A stretch of 64,000 bases of DNA from Gemmatimonadota bacterium (GTDB taxonomy: Bacteria > Gemmatimonadota > Gemmatimonadetes > Gemmatimonadales > Gemmatimonadaceae). The position numbers and the translations under genes are program-made. Positions 5,540 through 8,382 of this stretch are shown here, piece by piece (the first letter of the stretch is position 1; every line of letters starts with the position of its first letter). The notes under the pieces were generated by a model that was not told where the DNA came from, did not search any database, and saw nothing but the letters and a program-made list of their open reading frames with translations. The stretch is from the NCBI GenBank assembly GCA_003134685.1, contig PLCA01000002.1, positions 521,966 through 585,965 of the forward strand, in the 5' to 3' direction.

Positions 5540-7453
5540 CTAGAACTCCATCTGTGCGCCCAACTCGACCACCCGATTCGGCGGTATTCCGAAGAACTCC
5601 GTCGCCGGGCGCGCGTTGCGCTGCATAAAAATGAAAAGCCGCTTGCGCCAGCGCGCGAGCGGCTTGTTGCCGGTCGGGATGAGATTCTCGCGGCCGAGGT
5701 AAAACGTGGTCTCCGTCGGCTTGGCGACGATGCCGCGCTCGGCCGCCAGCGCGAGAATCTCGGGCACGTTTGGCGTCTGCATGAAGCCGTACTTCGCCTT
5801 GATGCGCCCGAAGTTGTGCGGGAAGCAGGTCACTTCGATGCGCTCGGCGATCGGAATTTCCGGCACCTGTGCGGAGACGATGGAAAGGAGAACCACGTTC
5901 TCGTGCAGCACCTTGTTGTGCTTGAGGTGGTGCAGCAGCACTAGCGGCGCGTCCTTCGATTCGGACGTCAGGAACACCGCGGTCCCCGGAACACGCGGAG
6001 GCTTGAAGCGCTTGTCAGGATTGTCATCGCTCAGATCCCTGAGCAGCACGTCGAGAGGGATCGAAGCATCCACGAGCAGGCTGCGCACGATCAGTCGTCC
6101 ACGGTGCCACGTCGTCATCAGCGTGAAAATCCCGCCCGCGATGACGAGAGGCACCCAGCCGCCCTGCACGATCTTGAGCATGTTGGCGGAGAAGAACGCG
6201 AGATCGATGATCAGGAAAAACGCGGCGAGCAGGCCGGCTCGCCAGACACTCCACCGCCAGTGCGTCCGCGCGAGCACGTAGAAGAGAATCGTCGTGATGG
6301 TCATTGTCCCGGTGACGGCAATTCCGTACGCGGCTGCCAGCGAGCTCGAGGTCCTGAACATGAGCACCACGAGAATGCATCCGAGTCCCAGTGCGCGATT
6401 CACTTCGGGAACGAATATCTGCCCCTGTTCCGATTGCGACGTATGGACGATCTGAACGCGCGGGCTGTAGCCCAGCTGCACTGACTGCTGCGTGAGCGAG
6501 AACGCGCCGGAGATGAGAGCCTGAGACGCGATGATCGCCGCGATCGTCGCGAGAGCGATCAGAGGATACTGGAGCGCGCTGGGCGCGAGCAGGTAGAACG
6601 GATTGACCGCGGTCGTCGGGTCCCTCAGAATCAGCGCGCCCTGCCCGAAGTAGTTCGCCAGCAGTGCCGGCAACACCAGGAGGAACCAGGCTAGGCGGAT
6701 CGGCCGCTTGCCGAAGTGTCCCATGTCGGCATACAGCGCCTCGGCTCCCGTGACGGCCAGGACTACCGCTCCGAGCAGGACAAACCCGGCGTGCCCATGT
6801 CGAAGGAAAAACTCCACGCCGTATAGGGGATTCGCCGCGACGAGGACCTGAGGGGCCTGCAGAATCTCGGCGAGGCCGAGTCCGCCTATCGTCGCGAACC
6901 AGACGACCATCACGGGCCCGAATATTCGTCCGACCTTCGCGGTCCCGTGCTGCTGAAAGAAAAACAGGCCGAAGAGTATCACCACGGTCAAAGGAAGCAC
7001 GAGATGCACCGACTGCGGTGCCACCACTTCCAGGCCTTCCACGGCGCTCAACACGGAGATCGCCGGGGTGATCACGCCATCGCCGTAGAGGAGCGCCGCT
7101 CCGATCAATCCCAGAGCGATGATCGTCTTGCGACGAAAGGAATCCGCATCGCGCCGCTGCTTCTGAAGAATGAGCGCCAGCAACGCGAGAATTCCGCCCT
7201 CGCCGTTGTTGTCCGCCCGCATGATGAAGATGATGTACTTGATGCTGACGATGACTATCAGCGACCAGACGATCAGCGAGAGAACGCCGTAGACGTTGTC
7301 CGGCACCGGAGCGAGGCCATGCTCCAGCTTGAAGCACTCGCGCAGGGCATAGAGGGGACTGGTGCCGATGTCCCCATAAACGACGCCTAAAGCGAGAAGA
7401 GTGAGTTTTGCGAGACGGCGGCCGCTCGGACGAGCTTCGAGGTTAGTGCTGAT
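5540..7453 (-). CDS. kup: Low-affinity potassium transporter Kup
   Basis: About 637 aa, a 12-helix KUP/HAK/KT potassium:proton symporter of the inner membrane with a soluble C-terminal domain. The conserved first-helix motif GVVYGDIGTSPLY lies at 7349-7387. It is upstream of the first conventional start (GTG 7306), which would delete 49 conserved residues. No ATG, GTG or TTG occurs in frame between the stop TAG 7463-7465 and this motif. The best candidate start is ATC at 7453, giving ISTNLEARPSGRR with AGG about 8 bases upstream. The exact start remains inference; the family call is firm. Confidence 0.9.
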   Translation of the reverse strand: MSTNLEARPSGRRLAKLTLLALGVVYGDIGTSPLYALRECFKLEHGLAPVPDNVYGVLSLIVWSLIVIVSIKYIIFIMRADNNGEGGILALLALILQKQRRDADSFRRKTIIALGLIGAALLYGDGVITPAISVLSAVEGLEVVAPQSVHLVLPLTVVILFGLFFFQQHGTAKVGRIFGPVMVVWFATIGGLGLAEILQAPQVLVAANPLYGVEFFLRHGHAGFVLLGAVVLAVTGAEALYADMGHFGKRPIRLAWFLLVLPALLANYFGQGALILRDPTTAVNPFYLLAPSALQYPLIALATIAAIIASQALISGAFSLTQQSVQLGYSPRVQIVHTSQSEQGQIFVPEVNRALGLGCILVVLMFRTSSSLAAAYGIAVTGTMTITTILFYVLARTHWRWSVWRAGLLAAFFLIIDLAFFSANMLKIVQGGWVPLVIAGGIFTLMTTWHRGRLIVRSLLVDASIPLDVLLRDLSDDNPDKRFKPPRVPGTAVFLTSESKDAPLVLLHHLKHNKVLHENVVLLSIVSAQVPEIPIAERIEVTCFPHNFGRIKAKYGFMQTPNVPEILALAAERGIVAKPTETTFYLGRENLIPTGNKPLARWRKRLFIFMQRNARPATEFFGIPPNRVVELGAQMEF

Positions 7454-7531
7454 TTGCGCGACCTATAGAGGTTCAGGCCACCCAATTGCCGGCGGCTTTG
7501 AGTTCGGAATTTCCTCAAGCGCGCGACCCTT

Positions 7532-7567
7532 TGCAAGGCCGATCCCCCCCCTGCAAGGCTGACCCCA
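7532..7567 (+). promoter_or_regulatory. Paired direct repeats upstream of csbD
   Basis: TGCAAGGCCGATCCCC (7532-7547) and TGCAAGGCTGACCCCA (7552-7567) are near-identical and exactly 20 bp apart, about two helical turns. They lie between divergent kup and csbD. This arrangement suits a dimeric activator or repressor, but none is identified. Confidence 0.4.
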
Positions 7568-7658
7568 GTACGTACAAAAAAGACGTAAAAGGGGGGCATA
7601 TCGCTTGCTTTATGAGAGGCACAACAGAAAGCACCTGATTCTACTTATGGAGGGTTAA

Positions 7659-7859
7659 ATGAAGGATCTAAACGAAAGGGGTCTCGAGAACCAAGTCAAA
7701 GGAACCGCCAAGGAATTGAAAGGAAGGGTTCGCGGCGATCTGGGCGACGCCACCGACAACTCCAGTGAGCACATCAAGGGGCGTACTGAAGAGCTCAAGG
7801 GCAAGGTCCAGAAGAACTTCGGGAAGGGCGAGAGAAAAGCCGACCCGGATAACGTCTAA
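7659..7859 (+). CDS. csbD: CsbD family stress-response protein
   Basis: 66-aa hydrophilic protein with the CsbD pattern LENQVKGTAKELKGRVRGDLGD and a second KG-T-ELKGKVQKNFGKGERK half. Start ATG 7659 has a strong GGAGG 7-11 bases upstream. Family members are small abundant cytoplasmic proteins induced by general stress; their biochemical role is unknown. The gene is monocistronic and closed by a strong terminator. Confidence 0.9.
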   Translation: MKDLNERGLENQVKGTAKELKGRVRGDLGDATDNSSEHIKGRTEELKGKVQKNFGKGERKADPDNV

Positions 7860-7879: not shown

Positions 7880-7915
7880 AAAAGCGCCGGTGCAGAGATC
7901 TGCACCGGCGCTTTT
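7880..7915 (+). terminator. Rho-independent terminator of csbD
   Basis: AAAAGCGCCGGTGCA (7880-7894) pairs perfectly with TGCACCGGCGCTTTT (7901-7915) around a 6-base loop. The flanking A- and T-runs make it potentially bidirectional, so it could also stop transcripts of the Spy-like gene. Confidence 0.9.
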
Positions 7916-7938: not shown

Positions 7939-8382
7939 TCAGTAAGGCGCATCTCCCGGTGGCGGGACTGGAGGGCGTGCCGTCGAGTCTCCTCCTCGAC
8001 GCTCAGCGAGCTCACGGCGCGCGGCCGCGCGCATCCTGTCGAGCTTCACCTGCTGGTCCGGATTCAACAGCCGCTTGATCTGCGCGTGAGTACTGTCGCT
8101 GACTACCCGCGCCAGGACCGCGATCGAATCGAGCTGCGACTTTACCGGCTTGTAGAGCGTGACGATCTGCCTGTGCTTCTGCTCGATCAGCGAATCAACG
8201 GAAGCCTGCTGCCCGGGAGTGAGCTTGAGCTCTTCGGCCATTCTTTGTCTGTACGCGCGCGGTCCCCGCATATCGCGGCCATGCTTGGCGTCCATCATCC
8301 GGTCGGCGGTAAAACCCAGCGCGCCGCCCGCGAGGAAAGCGCCGAGCAGAAACATCATGGCGTAACCCTTTGAGCTTTCCAT
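7939..8382 (-). CDS. Spy/CpxP-like periplasmic protein
   Basis: 147 aa with an N-terminal membrane/signal segment (YAMMFLLGAFLAGGALGF). Two LTPxQ-type repeats are visible (LKLTPGQQASVDSLIEQ at ~52-68 and LLNPDQQVKLDRM at ~105-117), the hallmark of the Spy/CpxP helical-cradle fold. Such proteins act as periplasmic chaperones or stress sensors. It follows the anti-sigma-like gene by 8 bp, with GAGG before ATG 8382. Confidence 0.75.
   Translation of the reverse strand: MESSKGYAMMFLLGAFLAGGALGFTADRMMDAKHGRDMRGPRAYRQRMAEELKLTPGQQASVDSLIEQKHRQIVTLYKPVKSQLDSIAVLARVVSDSTHAQIKRLLNPDQQVKLDRMRAAARRELAERRGGDSTARPPVPPPGDAPY

Follow-up and report, generated by a model that had tools for sequence, protein, structure and literature searches.

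A conserved ATC codon as the predicted translation start of the potassium transporter gene kup in a genus of Gemmatimonadaceae

Introduction

The pcnB gene of E. coli, a different gene in a different phylum from the one considered here, is a chromosomal gene limited by its AUU start codon. AUC and AUU start codons are known as a class, and kup, the gene of a potassium transporter, is an unexpected gene for such a start. According to PMC5472188, infC starts with ATT in E. coli and with ATC in Streptomyces, the GTC start of the Streptomyces sigR gene is under repression by IF3 and SigR is overproduced when that start is made canonical, and characterised natural non-canonical starts outside infC are very few. 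The AUC start in PMC10303841 is an engineered mutation, and the available portions of PMC10158994 and PMC11497404 treat no natural AUC gene. Searches of an open-access library returned no paper that, judged by its title and the beginning of its abstract, describes a natural AUC start in kup.

The locus described here lies in a stretch of 64,000 nucleotides from a Gemmatimonadota bacterium (contig PLCA01000002.1), referred to as the window, and compares with these systems as follows. Its kup shares with infC both the codon class and the very same genomes; however, infC is under negative autoregulation via AUU/AUC, whereas the kup product is a K+ transporter and not the discriminating factor, and no feedback by its own product would be expected. 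Like sigR (PMC5472188), kup is a gene other than infC whose non-canonical start is conserved, but sigR has a GTC codon behind a very strong AGGAGGTG site, whereas kup has ATC behind a site of the AGG type only; moreover, the repression of sigR by IF3 was proven by experiment, whereas the kup start is predicted from sequence comparison. Within the Kup/HAK/KT family of K+ transporters (PF02705, TIGR00794), the present gene is a full-length domain match, and its clade departs from the family in having no canonical start and an N-terminus that is shortened relative to most of the other Gemmatimonadaceae copies seen.

Results and Discussion

The kup frame and its 5' end

On the minus strand of the window, a frame that is open from GTC 7462 to the stop codon at 5540-5542 was identified as kup (window 5540-7462). 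The codons at its 5' end are TAG (7465-7463), GTC, GCG, CAA, ATC (7453-7451), AGC, ACT and AAC, and the first canonical codon in the frame is GTG 7306, from which the list of open reading frames gives an ORF of 588 amino acids. The sequence-only reading had described this frame as devoid of ATG, GTG and TTG from the in-frame stop at 7463-7465 to the conserved motif ahead of GTG 7306, and the description is exact. The features of the region, in window coordinates, are the following.

5540..7453, minus strand: kup coding sequence counted from the ATC, 637 amino acids plus stop (PF02705, PF22776, TIGR00794)
7451..7453, minus strand: predicted ATC start codon, kept as ATC or ATT in the genus (comparison of relatives)
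7461..7464, minus strand: AGGT, Shine-Dalgarno-like, 7 nt 5' of the ATC; identical in 9/9 aligned close relatives, including the window genome
7463..7465, minus strand: TAG in frame with kup, which bounds the open frame on its 5' side and overlaps the AGGT (sequence)
7304..7306, minus strand: GTG, first in-frame canonical codon, which automatic gene calling would probably, but wrongly, choose as the start (ORF list, Pfam)
7505..7520, minus strand: conserved block GCTTGAGGAAATTCCG upstream of kup, which is GCTTGCGGAAATTCCG in most close relatives (leader alignment)
7659..7859, plus strand: divergent csbD-like gene that shares the intergenic region with kup and lies upstream of kup in 15/17 loci (Pfam, leader alignment)

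Counted from the ATC, the protein matched the Pfam families PF02705 (K_trans) over residues 18-471 (1.6e-188) and PF22776 (K_trans_C) over residues 489-636 (6.5e-50). It passed TIGR00794 with 577.6 bits against a cut-off of 539.6, and scored below the E. coli-type Kup model NF008015 (743.5 against a cut-off of 883). Both the integral membrane domain and the C-terminal domain of a Kup potassium transporter are thus present, which places the protein in that family, and it is the product of the only kup of the window genome.

These matches also bear on GTG 7306, which is what a standard ORF finder returns and which would be the true start if the conserved part upstream of it were a relic. The frame had been claimed to be conserved ahead of this GTG, and it is indeed so. 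K_trans begins at residue 18 (ATC = 1) and includes GVVYGDIGTSPLY. Initiation at the GTG would lose the first 49 residues; since the GTG is residue 50 and K_trans starts at residue 18, about 32 residues of the domain would be deleted, GVVYGDIGTSPLY among them. The lost residues include, moreover, some of the most conserved of the protein, with third-base variation, while 7306 itself (offset 147) falls in a variable stretch and is occupied by many different codons. We give this alternative next to no credence. Annotation limited to ATG, GTG and TTG would truncate genes such as kup.

The start codon across the genus

Of 19 genus genomes searched, 17 had a kup match, none being found in G004 and G016, and the start region was readable in 15 of those 17. 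In the resulting 17 copies, all from assembled genomes that are mostly many-contig drafts, the start codon was ATC in 16 and ATT in one (L015 of G015), and was always located at codon -26 relative to GDIGTSPLY. The proposal that ATC 7453 is the start of kup was thereby strengthened, as its position is kept in 15/15 genus genomes with a readable start and maps identically in the close relatives; an ATG at the equal position in one homologue (L035) and a well-spaced AGG in 15/17 copies lend it further support. Kept out of the 17 was a partial 18th copy (L037), which also has ATC but is cut to 57 residues by the end of a G012 contig, and three further loci were dropped, namely L003 (G014, in which the contig ends short of the start), L036 (a C-terminal fragment in G006) and L038 (a second view of G013).

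The window genome is itself a draft in 16 contigs, and a sequencing or assembly error could in principle have turned a true ATG into ATC, or an indel could mask an ATG upstream. However, the same ATC, once replaced by ATT, recurs across 15 genomes in 17 copies with protein identities as low as 66%, and nine of the 17 have the closely placed TAG in common. The occurrence of ATC/ATT in the relatives therefore refutes an error for practical purposes, and we consider its probability negligible.

The frame upstream of the ATC lacks any canonical codon in 12/17 copies; the other five (L011, L013, L032, L033 and L034) do have some, in places that are not conserved. When per-base variation was examined without gaps in the 17 copies, the codons directly upstream were found to vary at all three positions, the first and second bases of the ATC codon were invariant, and the variation downstream shifted to third positions. 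Judged from this alignment, conservation of the codon type starts at the ATC codon. It is to be noted that residues 4, 5, 8 and 10 of the Kup tail just past the ATC vary among the copies; an isoleucine with no role in initiation would hardly be expected to stay invariant in so variable a tail.

Another route into the frame would be a programmed frameshift out of an ORF that begins farther upstream in a different frame, or stop-codon read-through, the ATC then being an internal isoleucine codon. The window does contain a 70-amino-acid ORF in another frame that begins with ATG and overlaps the ATC (7387-7599), and a true programmed frameshift, that of prfB, emerged from the scan of the same genome presented below. 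Yet the overlapping frames are not conserved, the DNA upstream of the ATC shows no codon-like conservation, and three copies (L010, L015 and L034) have no canonical codon upstream of the ATC/ATT in either of the other frames, so that entry from an upstream ORF cannot account for kup in general. We regard entry from another frame or by read-through as very improbable. The ATC, on the other hand, bears several marks of a non-canonical start: the lack of an in-frame canonical codon, a fixed position in relatives that is canonical in some homologues, and the spacing of the ribosome-binding site. On the strength of these comparisons, the ATC/ATT start of kup is judged to be real and genus-wide, and its position is well supported.

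Two genomes carry kup in tandem (G003:C1 and G018:C322; L033 and L034), and both copies start with ATC. As a separate observation, the first residues of the G017 kup (L012, G017:C174) are nearly those of the G005 kup (L008), while the match to the window protein is 70% for G017 against 82% for G005; a mosaic or recombination is possible.

Homologues and phylogeny

In a tree of 57 kup proteins, built from loci L001-L060 minus the dropped loci and second copies already counted, with L061-L118 left out, the 17 copies formed one clade with a support of 95/90. Two other copies from genus genomes fell outside it: L031 (G006) is 52% identical and differs at the N-terminus, where an ATG lies in frame, and L035, a distant copy in G015, has its ATG at the same -26 position. 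A kup from another family (L026) has GTG at the equivalent position. Outside the genus, an in-frame canonical codon preceded the motif in 15/15 copies of a first set, at least 20 codons ahead, and in 43/43 copies of a second set, at least 15 codons ahead; five members of the second set had been counted before, which leaves 53 distinct copies (53/53 canonical), and 20 of the loci had been picked mainly among shorter open frames, in which a missing start is likeliest. In most of the other Gemmatimonadaceae kup copies seen, the N-terminus is extended and a canonical codon lies upstream. Since all 53 copies examined outside the genus have an in-frame canonical codon ahead of the motif, the ATC start seems to characterise the genus, in which the N-terminus appears shorter than in most relatives.

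Ribosome-binding site and leader

An AGG occurs no more than 22 nt upstream of the start in 15/17 copies. The mean pairing with the anti-Shine-Dalgarno sequence was -3.5 kcal/mol for the kup starts versus -2.2 kcal/mol for internal ATC/ATT codons (17 versus 765 sites, rank test p 0.001, the rows not being independent), and 31% of the internal control sites paired as well as the median kup start or better. By these measures, the kup ribosome-binding site is of the AGG type and of only moderate strength. Close to the gene, the alignment of the nine closest leaders is best conserved from TAGGTCGC to AATCAG and ACT, and the conserved block farther upstream at 7505-7520 is perhaps a promoter or operator.

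No riboswitch or known RNA was found over the kup leader with Rfam at a permissive threshold, all matches being below gathering scores and located elsewhere, and no sigma-70 promoter or terminator was found in 7440-7700. A hairpin that would hide the ribosome-binding site was considered and rejected: among the 11 of 17 copies covered by leader folding, it folds in the window (-14.5 kcal/mol) and in L014 (-13.0 kcal/mol), but not in others (L009, -2.8 kcal/mol), and hence no conserved structure is claimed for the leader. Two minor observations were also made in the vicinity. At 7552-7570 the window contains about 19 nt that eight aligned relatives lack. CCTTGCA is repeated close by, and the extra bases apparently arose by recent insertion or duplication between kup and csbD. 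At ~7880-7915, past a minus-strand gene ending at 7939, a strong stem-loop rich in GC precedes a run of T, an arrangement that resembles an intrinsic terminator.

Selection on the third base

Four-fold degenerate columns with an invariant amino acid were compared in 16 aligned full copies, with the copies being related and codon bias left unmodelled, and 102 of the 108 had G as the third base in some copy; six had no G, and only one of these was restricted to C and T, as is the start codon. Since free third bases sample G in nearly all columns, never having become ATG is unusual, which suggests that canonical starts of kup are selected against. The ratio of ATC to ATT at the start equals that at one other invariant isoleucine codon of the gene, and the third base alone is therefore no proof of a start.

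The same data bear on whether the ATC, though a start, is a relic of drift devoid of regulatory meaning, in a low-demand gene that lost a longer N-terminus. Other genera mostly have such an extension with its upstream canonical codon, and the ATC may have been captured when the extension was lost. Drift would nevertheless have had to keep the ATC through the whole clade and in the tandem duplicates (L033, L034) with ATG one base away, in a gene whose free third bases nearly always sample G. We consider a drift relic unlikely, though a good deal more credible than the other alternatives above.

infC and the proposed control by IF3

IF3 was found in 19/19 genus genomes, and infC starts with ATC in seven and with ATT in 12 of the 19, at a fixed place before CAG GAC. 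The gene known for this codon class thus shows, in the same genus, a C/T exchange like that of kup. We propose that the AUC of kup (7453-7451), sitting behind a moderate AGG-type ribosome-binding site, would be read as fMet by the usual initiator tRNA, with (f)MSTNLEARPSGRR as the predicted N-terminus. Kup would be made at a low rate because selection keeps its start codon weak, and translation of kup is probably held low. The earlier suggestion that the ATC start could tune translation is plausible by analogy with infC and sigR; just as infC represses itself via AUC/AUU, IF3 would be expected to repress initiation at kup, which may in this manner be controlled by IF3. Taken as a whole, an AUC start that is initiated with fMet, weak by selection and expected to be repressed by IF3 is in our estimate a highly likely reading.

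More tentatively, K+ uptake might have become part of the IF3 circuit through a common AUC/AUU start class of kup and infC, in which the ratio of IF3 to ribosomes would set Kup synthesis; we find this conceivable but rather doubtful. If true, ion uptake would be coupled to translation capacity through K+, the main counter-ion of the ribosome. With its genus-wide AUC start, kup adds a metabolic gene, that of a transporter, to the few natural AUC, AUU and GUC starts outside infC, of which fewer still have been shown to be under IF3 control, and it offers a simple test of whether ion uptake can come under initiation-fidelity control.

Genome-wide scan for missing starts

A coding-potential scan covered 864 kb (40 stretches plus the window, ~24% of the genome) and 606 gene-like ORFs, among which kup ranked fifth for coding signal ahead of the first canonical codon. 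Judging from their translations, ranks one to four are apparently antisense shadows of other genes, and kup was judged the top-ranked case in the 864 kb of a real gene without a canonical start codon. Such a scan is blind to genes, infC included, that happen to have a canonical codon upstream, and the count of AUC/AUU starts is therefore a lower bound.

Below kup, the scan returned prfB and coaBC. The prfB gene (release factor 2, L177:8337-9422) has the programmed +1 frameshift site CTT TGA C, a known feature. The coaBC gene (L161:13275-14522, minus strand; G000:C12 ~473275-474522; relatives L178-L193) lacks an ATG, GTG or TTG start among the closer relatives of the window genome, which have GCG behind GGAG, whereas the rest of the genus (L187-L193) has GTG, TTG or ATG in the place of that GCG; coaBC is possibly a second non-canonical or coupled start.
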